This document shows positions 9,589-49,992 of a stretch of DNA of 64,000 bases, piece after piece. Numbering within the stretch: position 1 is the stretch's first letter; every line of letters begins with the position of its first letter. The stretch spans positions 1-64,000 of the forward strand of contig JAJDEF010000017.1 in assembly GCA_029259945.1 (NCBI GenBank), given 5' to 3'. Under the pieces are notes generated by a model. It saw nothing but the letters and a program-made list of their open reading frames with translations. It was not told where the DNA came from and did not search any database. The stretch comes from Planctomycetota bacterium (GTDB taxonomy: Bacteria; Planctomycetota; Planctomycetia; Pirellulales; Lacipirellulaceae). The position numbers were made by a program, and so were the translations under genes.

Positions 9589-10446
9589 CTATTGTTCAAG
9601 CCGTCGTGCTGCTGCCAGGGTGTTTACTAAGAGCATCACTCGCGTCAACGGCCCCACCCCGCCAGGGACTGGCGTGAGGTAGCCTGCGACTTCGCGAACG
9701 GCCTCAAAATCGACATCGCCCACCAAACCCTTGTCGGTTCGGTTGATCCCGACGTCGATGACCGTGGCCCCCGGCTTGACCATGTCGGCAGTCACAAAAT
9801 TCGGTTTGCCAATCGCTACGATTAAGATATCTGCTTGCCTCGCCACCGCAGGCAAATCGCGTGTCCGACTGTGGCAGAGCGTCACGGTCGCATCCTTGCC
9901 GCGTTGTGCAAGCATTACTGACAACGGCTTGCCGACGATATCACTACGTCCGATGACCACCACGTTTTGGCCGGCTGTGGGTATATCATTGCGGGCAAGC
10001 AGTTCGATCACACCATGAGGCGTACAGGGCAAATAGCGTGGCCGATCTTGCATCAGACGGCCCACGTTGTCTGAGTGAAACGCATCGACGTCTTTCAGAG
10101 GGTTGATGACGTCGAGCACTACTTCTGTGTCGATCTGTTTCGGTATCGGCAGCTGCACCAAGATGCCATGTACCGTATCGTCTTTGTTCAATTTGCCGAT
10201 CAAGGTCAGCAGTTCGTCTTGAGTGGTCTCGACGGGCAAGTGATACAGTTGGCTTTGGATGCCCACCTCTTCGCAATCTCGCCGCTTGTTGCGAACGTAA
10301 ACTTCGCTTGCAGGGTCGGTTCCGACAAGCACTGCCGCAAGCGTGGGGATCGTGACATTGTTCTCGATAAAGTCCGCCACCTCGACCGCTAATTCCGAAC
10401 GAATCTGGCGGGCTAGCGATTTACCGTCGAGTAGAGCAGCGGGCAT
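9589..10446 (-). CDS. folD: Methylene-THF dehydrogenase / methenyl-THF cyclohydrolase
   Basis: FolD (285 aa) interconverts 5,10-methylene-THF, 5,10-methenyl-THF and 10-formyl-THF in the cytoplasm. The signature YVRNKRRDCEEVGI gives the catalytic Tyr and Lys. Further family blocks are QLPIPKQIDTEVVLDVINPL, the NADP loop VIGRSDIVGKPLSVMLAQRG and the C-terminal PVPGGVGPLTRVMLLVNT. The frame is open upstream to 10686, but the family starts near MPAALLDGKSLARQI, so ATG 10446 is chosen. It lies downstream of pgpA on the same strand, separated by the palindromic element at 10519-10598, and converges with the SpoU gene. Confidence 0.95.
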   Translation of the reverse strand: MPAALLDGKSLARQIRSELAVEVADFIENNVTIPTLAAVLVGTDPASEVYVRNKRRDCEEVGIQSQLYHLPVETTQDELLTLIGKLNKDDTVHGILVQLPIPKQIDTEVVLDVINPLKDVDAFHSDNVGRLMQDRPRYLPCTPHGVIELLARNDIPTAGQNVVVIGRSDIVGKPLSVMLAQRGKDATVTLCHSRTRDLPAVARQADILIVAIGKPNFVTADMVKPGATVIDVGINRTDKGLVGDVDFEAVREVAGYLTPVPGGVGPLTRVMLLVNTLAAARRLEQ

Positions 10447-10518: not shown

Positions 10519-10598
10519 TAAAGCCGGTTTCAAAACCGATCTTGGTACGAAAATTTCCGGCCGTGGGATACTTTTTTGACGTTTTGAAACCGGCTCTA
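10519..10598. repeat. TA-flanked palindromic element, copy 1 (MITE-like)
   Basis: A 74-base core with 14-bp terminal inverted repeats, AGCCGGTTTCAAAA at the left and TTTTGAAACCGGCT at the right. The centre reads TTTCCGGCCGTGGGATACTT, followed by TTTTGACG. A TA dinucleotide stands one base outside each end (10519-10520 and 10597-10598), as expected of a TA target duplication. The reverse complement matches the element at 18063-18143 closely. It lies between pgpA and folD, and the pgpA stop codon (10596-10598) is made of the edge base plus the flanking TA. Confidence 0.8.
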
Positions 10599-11075
10599 CA
10601 GTCCAATCCACCCGAAACGCGCCAGCAGGTTCAATACCAGCCAGGCATATCCGGCTGCCACCCAGTCGTCGGCCATGATGCCCCACCCCCGTGGCAACTT
10701 TTCCATCTCTCGGGCGGGCGACGGCTTTGTGATGTCAAACAGGCGAAACAGGGCCCACCCAACCAACCACACCGCCACGCTTTTCTCGGCAAACCCCAGA
10801 TAGACGATTGGCAAGGCCCCAATCTCGTCGAGTACAATCGCTTGCGGGTCTTTGCTGCCCCCCAAAACTCGGGCTGCCCGCGAACATATCGCTACACTCA
10901 CAAGTCCTATCAAAGCCACGGCAGCATATTGGACCGAAAGTGGACCCGACTGACCGATAATCCAGGCGAGCGGCAGGCCCCACAACCCGCCAATCGTCCC
11001 TGGAGCAGGACTCACCAGCCCTACCCCCGCACCGGTGGCTAGCCAAACGGACGCTCGATCTGCGAAGTTGCTCAT
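10596..11075 (-). CDS. pgpA: Phosphatidylglycerophosphatase A
   Basis: A 159-aa membrane protein matching PgpA, which removes the phosphate from phosphatidylglycerophosphate in cardiolipin and phosphatidylglycerol synthesis. Family motifs are APGTIGGLWGLP, the acidic VLDEIGALPI, and FRLFDITKPSPAREMEKLPR followed by GWGIMADDWVAAGYA. Several hydrophobic segments fit its membrane location. The start MSNFADRAS (11075) is taken from family likeness; an ATG three codons upstream (11084) is equally possible, and neither has a clear ribosome-binding site. The stop codon abuts a palindromic repeat, so the last residues (RFGWIGL) may have been reshaped by the insertion. Confidence 0.9.
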   Translation of the reverse strand: MSNFADRASVWLATGAGVGLVSPAPGTIGGLWGLPLAWIIGQSGPLSVQYAAVALIGLVSVAICSRAARVLGGSKDPQAIVLDEIGALPIVYLGFAEKSVAVWLVGWALFRLFDITKPSPAREMEKLPRGWGIMADDWVAAGYAWLVLNLLARFGWIGL

Positions 11076-11283
11076 GCACAGCATCGTAAAGGGACAATCC
11101 GCTTGCCTCAACCAGTCATTTCTTTACGCCTCGAGTCCTTTAGCCAATATGGCCCATCCCTAGGCAAGCAGGTATGATGGACGACTACAAGTAAAACTGG
11201 GCAGACAGGGCGGCATGTAACTCGTCCAAGTGCTTGCCTAAGCCCCGCCTTTCCATACAACGCAGTACCCACGAAAAACGATT

Positions 11284-15339: not shown

Positions 15340-15388
15340 CAAATTCAATCCTAGTGCATTGTCAAAACTAAAAATTAGGGCTCACTGG

Positions 15389-15416
15389 ATTAGCCGTTTT
15401 GGCGCTAGCCACGGTT
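15389..15416. repeat. 28-bp GCTAGCGCC-type repeat, copy 1
   Basis: Reads ATTAGCCGTTTTGGCGCTAG followed by CCACGGTT. The same 28 bases occur at 27212-27239, inverted at 27250-27277, and inverted at 41316-41343. Here a single arm lies in the divergent spacer between ribBA and the esterase gene. Confidence 0.8.
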
Positions 15417-15550
15417 TTTCCGAGAGTTAAGCGGTGACAGAGTACCAGTCTCCAATCTCGCCCCCAATAAACTTGCCGTTCACGCGAAGTTCAGACAACA
15501 TTATAAGTGTTAACCATATCCATGACCATATTGGCCTGAAATACTGCCCG

Positions 15551-17328: not shown

Positions 17329-17589
17329 TTCGCTCTGGGGTAACAAATCGTAAAATTTCACCCTGTTTTGCTATTTTACACCCCGTCGAGTCATGGTAGA
17401 TTCCGGAAGGTTTCTGGTCGTTTTCAGAGATCGTTATGGGACGGAGCCCCATCCCTCCACCACTTCTTCTGGCAATCCCCTGCACACGGCTATGACGTCG
17501 GCCCACCTACCAAACATTGGGCCCCAATTTCATGTCCCTGCCTCGACACCCGATTCTAGCCGCGACCATTGGCGAGAGAGCTGCACGCT

Positions 17590-18054
17590 GTGAGTTTTCA
17601 GCTTAGTTTAAGTACCGAAGCGGTTACCGCTGCCTACCCAGACCAACCTCTGATTGTTGAGCCCACGGCGAACGTCGGCGAAGTGATGCAGCTAATGCGG
17701 GCACAAAAAACAGGGAGCGTCCTGGTTTGTGAAAACGGCAAGGTGCTGGGTATCTTCACCGAACGTGACGCCCTCAAACTCATGGCAGCCGCAGCCGATC
17801 TGAGTCAGGCGGTCTCGCAAGTCATGTCACAAGATCCGGTCTCGCTGAGTGCTGATGCCAACGTGGGTGAAGCAATAAAAATGATGTCGCAGGGGGGCTA
17901 TCGCCATCTGCCGATTCTCTCGAGCGAAGGTAAGCCTACAGGGTTGGCAACGGTGTATGGCATCATCCATTATCTGGTCGATCACTTCCCTCAAACAATT
18001 TACACATTGCCCCCCAATCCTGGTGCCATTACCAGCGAACGGGAAGGCGCCTGA
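17590..18054 (+). CDS. CBS-domain pair protein upstream of korA
   Basis: A 154-aa protein made of two CBS motifs, a Bateman module that usually binds adenosine ligands such as AMP, ATP or SAM. CBS1 spans IVEPTANVGEVMQLMRAQKT through GIFTERDALKLMAA; CBS2 spans MSQDPVSLSADANVGEAIKM through GGYRHLPILSSEGKPTGLAT. GTG at 17590 is preferred (VSFQLSLSTEAV) with GAGAGAG upstream; a longer frame begins at 17569. No enzyme domain is attached. It precedes korA by 141 bases, with the palindromic element between. A second CBS gene ends the cluster, suggesting paired sensors of energy state for the oxidoreductase. Confidence 0.85.
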   Translation: MSFQLSLSTEAVTAAYPDQPLIVEPTANVGEVMQLMRAQKTGSVLVCENGKVLGIFTERDALKLMAAAADLSQAVSQVMSQDPVSLSADANVGEAIKMMSQGGYRHLPILSSEGKPTGLATVYGIIHYLVDHFPQTIYTLPPNPGAITSEREGA

Positions 18055-18062
18055 TTGATTTT

Positions 18063-18143
18063 TAGGAGCGGTTTCAAAATTCCAAAAAAGTATCCCACGG
18101 CCGGAGATTTTCATGCCGAAAGTGGATTTTGAAACCGGCTGTA
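18063..18143. repeat. TA-flanked palindromic element, copy 2 (MITE-like)
   Basis: The core runs from GAGCGGTTTCAAAATTCC through AAAAAGTATCCCACGGCCGG to GATTTTGAAACCGGCT, with TA at 18063-18064 and at 18142-18143. It is the inverted counterpart of the element at 10519-10598, with about 80% identity by eye and the same size. Like that copy, it lies between two genes on the same strand (a CBS gene and korA). Confidence 0.8.
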
Positions 18144-18195: not shown

Positions 18196-20043
18196 ATGGC
18201 CACCTCGACCCCCTCGAAGCCCATCACCAATCTCGATGAGGCGACCGTCCGTTTTTGCGGCGACTCTGGCGATGGCATGCAGCTGGCTGGCACCCAGTTC
18301 ACCAATACCTCGGCTCTCCTGGGTAACGACGTCGCAACGTTTCCCGACTTTCCGGCCGAAATTCGGGCCCCTCGGGGCACCAAAGCAGGTGTCAGCGGTT
18401 TCCAAATTCATTTCTCTAGCAACGAAATCTTCACTCCCGGCGATACGGTTGATTCGCTCGTCGCGATGAACCCTGCCGCGCTTGTCACGAATCTTGCCGA
18501 TCTTCGCGATGGGGGTGTCCTGCTGGTCAATAAAGACGCCTTCGAAAAGAAGGGGCTCGCCCAAGCCGGTTACGAATCCGATCCCACCGAAGATGACAGC
18601 CTCGATAAATACAAGCTCCATGCAGTCCCGATGACCAAGCTGACGCGATTGGCTGTCGAAGGCATGGGACTCAGCCAAAAGGAAGCAGATCGTTGCCGTA
18701 ATTTCTTTGCAATGGGCCTCGTCTTTTGGCTCTACGATCGATCGCTTGACCCCACACTTCGCTTCATCGAGGCCAAGTTCGGCAAACGTCCCGAAGTGGC
18801 CCAGGCCAATACGGCTGCCCTCAAGGCGGGCTACCACTACGGCGAGACGGTTGAAGCAATCAACACGCAATATCACGTCCCAGCAGCAAAATTAGGGGCT
18901 GGTTCGTATCGAAACATCATCGGCAATACCGCACTCGCCTGGGGGCTACTAGCCGCTGCACAAAAGAGTAACAAGCGATTATTCCTCGGTGCTTACCCCA
19001 TCACCCCGGCCAGCGATATTCTTCACGAACTTGCTAAACACAAACACTTCAACGTCCTCACCTTCCAGGCAGAAGACGAAATTGCCGCCATGACTTCGAC
19101 CATCGGGGCTGCGTTCGCCGGGGTCATGGCTGTCACCGCAAGCAGCGGGCCAGGTATTGCACTGAAAGGCGAGGCGCTCGGCTTGGCCGTCATCACCGAA
19201 TTGCCGATGATCTGCATCAACGTCCAACGCGGTGGACCTTCGACCGGTTTGCCCACGAAGACCGAACAGTCGGACTTGTTCCAAGCGATGTACGGCCGCA
19301 ACGGCGAATGCCCTATGCCGATCATTGCCGCCCAAAGCCCCGGTGATTGTTTCGACATCGCCCTCGAAGCTTGGCGACTTGCGGTACGTTTTATGACTCC
19401 TGTCATGGTGCTGACCGACGGGTACATTGCTAATGGATCGGAACCATGGAAAATTCCGGAAATTAGCGACATCCCCAAAATCACCGTCGAACATCCTGGA
19501 CCATTAACTGGCGGCGAAGAATTCCAGCCTTATGCTCGCGATGAAAGACTTGCTCGTCCTTGGGCTGTGCCCGGCACCCCGGGACTCGAACACCGTCTGG
19601 GCGGCCTAGAAAAACAAGACATCGGCGGCGATGTCTGCTACGACCCCAATAATCACGAACATATGTGCGAACTTCGTGCTCAAAAGGTCGCCAACATTGC
19701 CGACGACATCCCAAAACAAGTGCTCGATGGCCCCGACAGTGGCGATCTACTCGTACTGAGCTGGGGCGGCACCTATGGCGCCTGCGCCACCGCTGTCCAC
19801 TTCGCTCAAGCTGCGAACAAAAAGGTGAGCCATTGCCACCTCCGCTACTTGAATCCGTTCCCGAAAAACTTGGGGGACATCTTCAAGCGATTCGATAAGG
19901 TTCTGATCCCTGAACTTAATCTCGGGCAGCTTGATTTGATGATCCGATCGCGATACCTACTCGACACCATTGGGTTAACCAAAATGCAAGGCAAGCCGTT
20001 TAGTGTCGCTGAAATATCCGAAAAAATTGATCAACTCGCCTAA
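18196..20043 (+). CDS. korA: 2-oxoacid:ferredoxin oxidoreductase, fused gamma-alpha subunit
   Basis: A 615-aa subunit for oxidative decarboxylation of a 2-oxoacid (probably 2-oxoglutarate) to acyl-CoA with ferredoxin reduction. The N-terminal gamma domain has [18 protein letters not shown] and [14 protein letters not shown]. The alpha (pyrimidine-binding) domain begins near residue 250, with [37 protein letters not shown] and [20 protein letters not shown]. The C-terminal transketolase-like domain ends [16 protein letters not shown]...[11 protein letters not shown]. The fusion and length are typical of KorA/OorA of planctomycetes and actinobacteria. ATG 18196 fits the family ([13 protein letters not shown]). 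It is followed by korB after 78 bases. Confidence 0.92.
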
Positions 20044-21820: not shown

Positions 21821-21895
21821 CCCCCACAGAGGGCACAGAGAACACCGAGACAAGCTTATTTCCAGGCACTCTACTCTGTGTCCTCCGTGGTAAAT
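21821..21895. repeat. CACAGAGG-family palindromic repeat, copy 2
   Basis: Opens CCCACAGAGGGCACAGAGAA and closes CTCTGTGTCCTCCGTGGTAA, an imperfect palindrome of the same family as the copy at 2053. It lies between the CBS gene and the convergent PEP-CTERM gene; the gap from 21663 to 22084 otherwise holds only the terminator listed separately. A partial match to the TA-flanked element may be present near 21735-21765 but is weak. Confidence 0.7.
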
Positions 21896-22015
21896 CTTTT
21901 CTTTCTGCCTTCGATTGATCGTACCGACTTTGCAGTTTACCTATCTTCGAACTTTCGTCTACGAAACTCCAGGCCCCATTGGGCGTGCGTCTAAAGTTTT
22001 CTTGCAAGGCGCATA

Positions 22016-26850: not shown

Positions 26851-27431
26851 TAGACGTCGTCTCCCATTAAATTAAGAAAATTTCCGAAAAGCTCCCCAAA
26901 ACTGGGCAGGATGGCCTAGTTTCGGACGTACCGTCAATTCCTAGCCCGCACTCCAATGCGAAACACCCAAACCCACTACCCCTCATCACAAGAGACAGAC
27001 TAAGCAGAGCAATTGACATTAACAGGCTATAGTGCGTATCTTAATAAAGGAAATTAAGGTACGCAAGCTTTTTGTCCATGTTTTCCAGAAATACTTTTGT
27101 CTATTCCCGTATTTCGCTTTTTTACGAGCAAAGTCGCTGGAATTTTTTTGTTCGCTGCCAAACGGGATGCCCGAGAAACTTCGTTGGCCTAGCCAAGCTC
27201 GGGTTCACCGCATTAGCCGTTTTGGCGCTAGCCACGGTTTTTTCCGGGCAACCGTGGCTAGCGCCAAAACGGCTAATCCGAAAGTCTGACACAAAATAGT
27301 TCGACAAGAAAGTAAAGTTTACTTACAATCAATTAGTGCCACTGCGCTCGGCCGGCGATACAAAACGGGGCAGCCATAGCCAACACCTACTTTCACCTAC
27401 TTTCTTTCATTTTCGGAAAGAGGCTTAGAGA
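26851..27431. other. Divergent spacer with promoters and large hairpin
   Basis: A 580-base gap between two divergent PEP-CTERM genes. It holds the perfect hairpin listed at 27212-27277. Possible rightward promoters are TTGACA (27013-27018) with TATCTT (27037-27042, spacer 18), and TTCGAC (27300-27305) with TACAAT (27324-27329, spacer 18); the second is the better candidate for the gene at 27432, as it lies past the hairpin. No open frame is credible. Confidence 0.4.
27212..27277. repeat. Perfect 28-bp inverted repeat hairpin (repeat copies 2 and 3)
   Basis: Arm 1 (27212-27239) and arm 2 (27250-27277) are exact reverse complements over 28 bases, with a 10-base loop. Arm 1 equals the single copy at 15389-15416; arm 2 equals the one at 41316-41343. 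It lies in the divergent spacer upstream of the GH16-like gene. Confidence 0.9.
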
Positions 27432-39028: not shown

Positions 39029-39097
39029 GGGCACAGAGAACACGGAGCCCCTTTTTTCAAGCACTCTGTGCTGCTCTGTGTCCTCGGTGGTAAATCT
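39029..39097. repeat. CACAGAGG-family palindromic repeat, copy 3
   Basis: Opens GGGCACAGAGAACACGGAGC and closes GTGCTGCTCTGTGTCCTCGG TGG. It lies between the permease gene and the CPFC-motif gene of the same cluster, so it would be transcribed as part of that mRNA if they are one operon. Confidence 0.7.
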
Positions 39098-39138
39098 TTT
39101 TTGCCTTGGATTTTTCCTGTTTTTCGTATACGGCATCA

Positions 39139-41147: not shown

Positions 41148-41315
41148 AGCGTAATGGATCGAAATCGAGGCGGGCGGGTAGAAGGGGGGAGCTAGCACTT
41201 TAGAATCGGTAAGTCGATAGCCGGACCGCCACGCGGTCCGAACCCTCTAAGGCCAACCATGATAGCCCACCTCAGCAGCTAGCAATAGCCGACTGAGCGG
41301 CAAGGCCTTCATGCC

Positions 41316-41343
41316 AACCGTGGCTAGCGCCAAAACGGCTAAT
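41316..41343. repeat. 28-bp GCTAGCGCC-type repeat, copy 4 (inverted)
   Basis: Reads AACCGTGGCTAGCGCCAAAA followed by CGGCTAAT, identical to the right arm of the hairpin at 27250-27277. It is a lone arm upstream of the ABC ATPase gene. Confidence 0.8.
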
Positions 41344-49921: not shown

Positions 49922-49992
49922 AGCGGGCGAAGGGAATCGAACCCTCGTAGTCGGCTTGGGAAGCCGATGCTCTACCATTGAGCTACGCCCGC
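49922..49992 (-). tRNA. tRNA-Gly (CCC anticodon)
   Basis: The minus strand forms a 71-base cloverleaf. The acceptor stem pairs GCGGGCG with CGCCCGC. The D arm has TAGCTCAATGGTAGAGC, the anticodon stem TCGGC/GCCGA encloses TTCCCAA giving anticodon CCC (plus-strand GGG at 49958-49960), and the T arm is CGAGGGTTCGATTCCCTTCG. No CCA end is encoded; the discriminator base is T. Confidence 0.95.

Follow-up and report, generated by a model that had tools for sequence, protein, structure and literature searches.

The window, by which we mean the whole stretch of 64,000 nucleotides that was analysed (G000:C9:1-64000), comes from a 3.48-Mb assembly in 44 contigs with an estimated completeness of 92%, whose gene content suggests a Planctomycetota, Pirellulales-like host. 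It carries two copies of a short palindromic element in opposite orientations, each lying between co-directional genes: PgpA then FolD on the minus strand around copy 1, and a CBS-domain protein then an oxidoreductase subunit alpha on the plus strand around copy 2. The features are as follows.

10519..10598, plus strand (consensus orientation): MITE copy 1, with TA at 10519-10520 and at 10597-10598
10522..10535, plus strand: left terminal inverted repeat (TIR) arm of copy 1, AGCCGGTTTCAAAA
10582..10595, minus strand: right TIR arm of copy 1, exact
10596..10598, minus strand: TAG stop codon of pgpA, made of the border TA and the end base of the element
10596..11111, minus strand: pgpA (phosphatidylglycerophosphatase A), upstream neighbour of copy 1
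9589..10446, minus strand: folD, downstream neighbour of copy 1
18062..18143, minus strand (opposite to copy 1): MITE copy 2 (L016)
18127..18140, minus strand: exact 14-bp arm of copy 2, whose other arm matches at 11/14
17569..18054, plus strand: CBS-domain protein, upstream neighbour of copy 2
18196..20043, plus strand: 2-oxoacid:acceptor oxidoreductase subunit alpha, downstream neighbour of copy 2

A preliminary description of this DNA had proposed a MITE-like element in two copies of equal length, with identical 14-bp arms and a TA-duplicating, mariner/IS630-like origin. Reading of the sequence bore out the two elements, their places and their opposite orientation, and a 15-base core is common to both. 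The lengths differ by one base in the register of a covariance model (81 bases, 10519-10599, against 82 bases, 18062-18143). Copy 1 has the exact 14-bp arm on either side and copy 2 on one side only, so that this arm is present three times, not four; the second arm of copy 2, GAGCGGTTTCAAAA, reaches its 11/14 identities in a fixed register. Aligned with each other, the copies are 84% identical over 74 positions.

The window also contains a different palindromic repeat with the core ATTAGCCGTTTTGGCGCTAGCCACGGTT and its reverse (15378-15419, 27201-27280 and 41308-41343), which at one place forms two inverted units separated by 10 bases, and a 30-base direct repeat of the CTCTGTGTCCTC.GTGGTAAAT type whose copies are 77-100% alike (2109-2138, 21871-21900 and 39071-39100).

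The element is not confined to two copies, as had first been described. A BLAST search with copy 1 identified at least 40 places in the genome, itself included, at E values from 6e-36 to 1.6e-6. A covariance model built from 30 BLAST places then matched at least 46 distinct genome places at E <= 1.6e-9, 30 of them training copies and 16 not. This number is a lower bound, the first look with the model having scored 150 of 1491 candidates, and leaves out reverse-strand echoes as well as C38:44768-44865 (L087, E 0.064), which resembles the element mainly in the right half. The model also matches at E <= 0.01 in 6 of the 13 other genomes of the genus, where some of the places matched belong to sister families; the closest relative tested, G008 (FolD 91% identical), has seven.

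The consensus of the ~82-bp element is TACAGCCGGTTTCAAAACCCACTTTCGGCACGAAAATCTCCGGCCGTGGGATACTTTTTTGGAGTTTTGAAACCGCTTCTAG. Its core is conserved and asymmetric, and its tips are unlike, with TACAGCC on the left and, read inward, CTAGAAGC on the right. The TIRs are imperfect, with arms of about 14-17 bases and agreement at no fewer than 11 of 15 positions in 41 of the 46 copies. Identity to the consensus ranges from 74 to 95% (median 88%), and the closest pair of copies is 96% identical while the median pair is 78% identical; the family has therefore not been freshly amplified. A crude codon score with low gene scores, which classed 45 of the 46 copies, places 30 of them in a co-directional gene context, 12 in a divergent and 3 in a convergent one; by the same rough measure 21 of the 30 co-directional-context copies are oriented opposite to the genes and 9 along them. 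The element is thus short, non-coding, multi-copy and TIR-bearing, as expected of MITEs, which the part of PMC3733652 available to us defines as 70-300 bp long with 15-30 bp TIRs and no coding capacity, and as mobilisable by transposases that recognise their TIRs. Its MITE-like, transposable character is further backed by the dispersal of the copies and by their absence at orthologous sites.

Bordering TA, reported for the two window copies, is a property of the whole family. TA is found at the left end of 37/46 copies, at the right end of 34/46 and at both ends of 28/46, while it makes up 3.1% of dinucleotides in the window. A pyrimidine precedes the left TA position in 44/46 copies, against 48% of the TAs in the window, and a purine follows the right TA position in 42/46; the full YTA...TAR pattern is seen in 24/46. 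T is also frequent two and three bases before the left TA (38/46 and 29/46, respectively). These border bases fit what would be left by a YTAR-type target with TA on both sides. YTAR is, in the excerpt of PMC10359306 consulted, the TSD motif of IS5 itself; that motif has four bases, whereas in our family only TA is common to both borders. Flank repeats of 1-9 bp, compared in many registers across the 46 copies, gave nothing clearly above mismatched pairings, a comparison that cannot assess TA because TA is too fixed at the element ends.

We then looked for larger elements with the same ends. The arm with its outer bases matched in 10 of 13 relatives (the reversed control matched once, in G003), and a 19-base form of the arm matched in 19 of 246 genomes of the order, where the control matched none. 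Among 20 stretches read from the latter search, three have two inverted arms ~0.9 kb apart, five have two arms spanning ~75-166 bp, one (L248) has overlapping arms and 11 have a single arm. Counting one found earlier, four full-length insertion sequences (ISs) with TIRs very similar to those of the MITE are present in other genomes of the same order:

G053:C78:34261-35141: full-length IS, 881 bp
G168:C1:1163198-1164121: full-length IS, 924 bp
G075:C132:18224-19145: full-length IS, 922 bp
G106:C350:14435-15355: full-length IS, 921 bp

In all four, DUF4096 (PF13340) matches the first frame above its cut-off, with E values between 6e-25 and 5e-27, and DDE_Tnp_1 (PF01609) likewise matches a second frame, which overlaps the first, above its own. 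The second frame of the G053 element has an internal stop and was scanned as two pieces, the first of which falls below the DDE_Tnp_1 cut-off. Both frames of each IS are also matched by the NCBIfam model NF033580 'IS5 family transposase'; because the protein is split between two frames, the whole-protein cut-off of this model (110 bits) is passed only by the second frames of the G168, G075 and G106 elements. Two overlapping frames in an element of 0.8-0.9 kb are IS427-like. In the rows of PMC3281130 accessible to us, IS427-group elements are 832-865 bp long, slightly shorter than the 881-924 bp found here, and 10 of 11 have 2-bp direct repeats and one has 4; some group members are described there as carrying two overlapping ORFs with a frameshift motif. 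Our assignment to the IS427 group is made on length, two-frame layout and HMM matches rather than on an ISfinder comparison. The likeness of our family to the IS5/IS427 group extends to the ends, the TA borders, the YTAR-like border bases and the two overlapping transposase frames of the partner.

The four ISs form one clade (support 0.905) in a 19-leaf tree of first-frame sequences, from which L158 (a repeat of L129) and the short matches L167 and L169 were left out. PF13340 loci numbered 25, from 10 of 18 genomes; the arm stands clearly at both ends in G053:C78 alone, and G053:C100, outside the four-IS clade, has a degenerate pair. Six further loci (L146, L147, L148, L155, L156 and L169) have loose arm matches (2-3 mismatches), unpaired at their ends, indicating that loose arm resemblance is not confined to the clade. 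Judged from these sequences, the arm is associated, if imperfectly, with a single clade of IS5 transposases. The resemblance between MITE and ISs, read by eye, is limited to the ends, the MITE core being unlike the ISs, and the tips of the family (TACAG... / CTAGAAG...) resemble those of the ISs (TAGAGCC...) closely without being the same.

Several contigs break inside IS ends, suggesting that the ISs are multi-copy. Eight other G053 contigs end 135-284 bases past the arm, in sequence that agrees with either the left or the right end of the G053 IS, with 107-117 identical of about 140 bases or 236 of 284. A G075 contig end (L243) is identical to the G075 IS over 139 of 139 bases, and two further G075 ends and one G106 end share 96-98 identities over ~136 bases with the G053 and G075 ISs. 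The G053 loci L109, L117, L123 and L130-L134 represent a second IS5 variant, ~80% identical to the intact one and present as contig ends only.

An autonomous partner with like ends is found in other genomes of the order and not in the window's own genome, where PF13340, a profile that covers only the PF13340-bearing IS5 subgroups, has no match. Nor does any PF13340 locus in the same-genus genomes that have this domain (7 of 13) carry the arm at both ends. From the missing match in the own genome we infer that the partner has been lost, is missing from the assembly, or belongs to an IS5 subgroup without PF13340.

Taken together, these observations make it very probable that the element is a MITE whose ends are recognised by an IS5-family (IS427-like) transposase and which spread by insertion at TA. 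The non-coding ~82-bp element would carry at both ends the sequences recognised by the transposase of a full-length, ~0.9-kb IS5-family element; such a transposase would have moved it in trans into TA inside a YTAR-like target, presumably duplicating the TA on insertion. The partner would then have been lost, or be missing from the assembly, leaving old, diverged copies.

TA borders are also typical of IS630, and the preliminary description had suggested a mariner/IS630-derived MITE whose TA was duplicated by an IS630 transposase. The four full-length elements with these TIRs are nevertheless all IS5-family. The window's own genome yields no DDE_3 match (0 of 1), and although DDE_3 has 31 matches in 9 of 13 genomes, none of the 30 loci read has an inverted arm pair at <= 3 mismatches; four of the 30 have unpaired loose arm matches, and some loci are cut by contig ends. 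With no IS630/Tc1-type element sharing the arms among these 30 loci, the IS630 origin is highly improbable. Y1 transposases raise the idea of a REP/BIME-like palindrome spread by a RAYT, Y1_Tnp being matched four times in the own genome and six times in G008. The arm, however, is found at <= 3 mismatches at none of these 10 loci, and an 82-bp MITE with TA borders and transposon-like TIRs differs from REPs, which measure 20-40 bp in the portion of PMC3733652 consulted, a paper that treats REPs in the Planctomycetes superphylum. We regard this explanation as extremely unlikely.

The symmetry of the element might also reflect selection for a conserved RNA or terminator structure instead of a transposon. 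Both strands of both copies fold as a hairpin more stable than the mean of shuffled sequences (z of -3.5, -4.2, -2.4 and -3.3), with 3 of 200 shuffles folding as well for one strand of copy 2 and none for the other three strands. Such folding follows from the inverted arms that the element carries. Covariation is weak, with changes on both sides in only 2 of 14 predicted pairs, no terminator-like site was found in the 321 bases scanned around copy 1 (loops of 3-8 only), and Rfam at its gathering threshold reports only a tRNA at 49922-49992 in the window. The element is also absent at orthologous sites in relatives, and selection on structure is a very unlikely account. The reading as a MITE with ends recognised by an IS5-family transposase is the one that we retain.

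Those orthologous sites were compared for individual copies. Copy 1 is absent from G008, where the flanks align through; copy 2 is absent from G010, G006, G013 and G012, again with flanks aligning through, and from G008 too. The search for empty sites in G008 covered about 600 kb of about 4.6 Mb and gave six copies aligned on both sides in one tile (L007, L010, L012, L021, L082 and L084). No clean junction was seen among the five viewed (all but L012); L007, absent from G008 with flanks aligning through at 70% identity, is one further usable, though diverged, site. The absence of the element is therefore clear at these sites, but the junctions are too diverged for a count of bases, except locally at pgpA.

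Other repeats were observed at and around such sites. In G008 the spacer upstream of korA (L184), orthologous to the copy 2 site, has an apparent tandem repeat instead of the MITE. An inverted-repeat family of ~80-110 bp lies near MITE copies (L009:1131-1233, L022:977-1060 and the right flank of L090) and is present in G008 too, with best matches of 88-97%, beside a G008 MITE copy. The right flank of L074 has a CCCAGGGT...ACCCTGGG repeat common to several G008 stretches.

The pgpA junction can be followed codon by codon. As the preliminary description had noted, the TAG stop (10596..10598) is built from the edge base of the element and the flanking TA. It had also been suggested that the insertion set the end of the protein. 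PgpA C-termini differ among relatives, two of which end in ...SGFLTAA* (G008) and ...GWLSTAA* (G010), while the window PgpA ends in ...GWIGL* at the element, and its domain is whole, with the PF04608 match reaching position 140 of 141 in the profile and residue 163 of 171 in the protein. Beyond the element the former Thr-Ala-Ala-stop (ACA GCC GCC TGA) is preserved in the DNA as (A)ACAGCCGCCTGA. The survival of these last codons downstream indicates that PgpA was once about four residues longer, and about four C-terminal residues are lost relative to the closest orthologue. When the element and one TA are removed, the site reads GGA CTG TAA ACA GCC GCC TGA and pairs codon for codon with GGC TTT CTA ACA GCG GCC TGA in G008. 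This junction would fit a 2-bp duplication, being one local agreement with several codons differing just upstream. Since the joined, element-free site already reads TAA, PgpA may have been shortened before the insertion, which may have turned TAA into TAG and not caused the shortening. The loss of residues thus stands; its attribution to the insertion is put in doubt.

To see how gene ends relate to the element more generally, we counted open frames extending over at least 120 codons ahead of the element at the 46 copies; these are predicted frames, pgpA being the verified gene. Nine such frames enter the right end, of which seven stop at its TA(G/A), the exceptions being L010, which stops at TGA one base further, and L081, which runs on to position 44. 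Three enter the left end: those at L016 and L075 read through, and that at L086 stops at the TAG of a variant left tip, TAGAG. This post hoc count of small numbers points to the survival of insertions into TAA/TAG stops in the orientation that turns the stop-keeping end towards the gene.

L081 (G000:C8:53410-53490) lies between two genes. The protein of the upstream gene gains ~13 residues encoded by the element; most of its orthologues terminate no further than about ten residues from a conserved GN. Removal of L081 under the 2-bp model gives one 617-codon frame through both genes. Orthologues, however, have two separate genes, and L081 was therefore counted neither way.

A scan of a genome collection with the 19-base left end returned eight stretches, seven of which were read (L267, from Ruegeria, was left out). 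A matching second end is present in two, which come from a single Acidobacteria MAG, and the other five look like chance. The two in the MAG (QHWJ01; L262:1714 and L265:6682) are ~90-bp elements with nearly the same ends and a different core. In a broader proposal that we put forward tentatively and consider somewhat doubtful as a whole, the end type TAGAnCCGGTTTCAAAACC and its close forms would be the shared 'passport' of several MITE families with unrelated cores (near 70, 82, 102, 124 and 135 bp in various genomes of the order, plus the ~90-bp pair in the Acidobacteria MAG), and a single IS5 subclade would be able to move them all in trans. In the species of the window, the right end (CTAG) would restore the stop in TAA/TAG and the left end (TACAG) would not, so that surviving gene-end insertions would nearly all be in the stop-keeping orientation.

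RUP is tied to IS630, whereas the present family is tied to IS5. Compared by description with RUP, ERIC and Nezha, listed as MITEs in the part of PMC3733652 consulted, the family is alike in size, lack of coding capacity and frequent location next to genes. The MITEs from 30 archaeal genomes of PMC3852290, some of which resemble their partner IS only at the borders according to the excerpt available, are likewise small, non-coding and multi-copy with only end segments IS-like; unlike them, our family has a partner known only from other genomes of the order. In the titles and abstract openings of the papers listed on MITEs in Planctomycetes and Pirellula no such element is described, and the family may be new to print.

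The element belongs to an ordinary MITE family, old and dispersed, whose best link is to an IS5/IS427-like transposase. The analysis records this family together with its IS5-type partners and corrects the likely mobiliser from IS630 to IS5. The family offers a small, testable case in which the end of a transposon can supply a stop codon and so can settle at the ends of genes.
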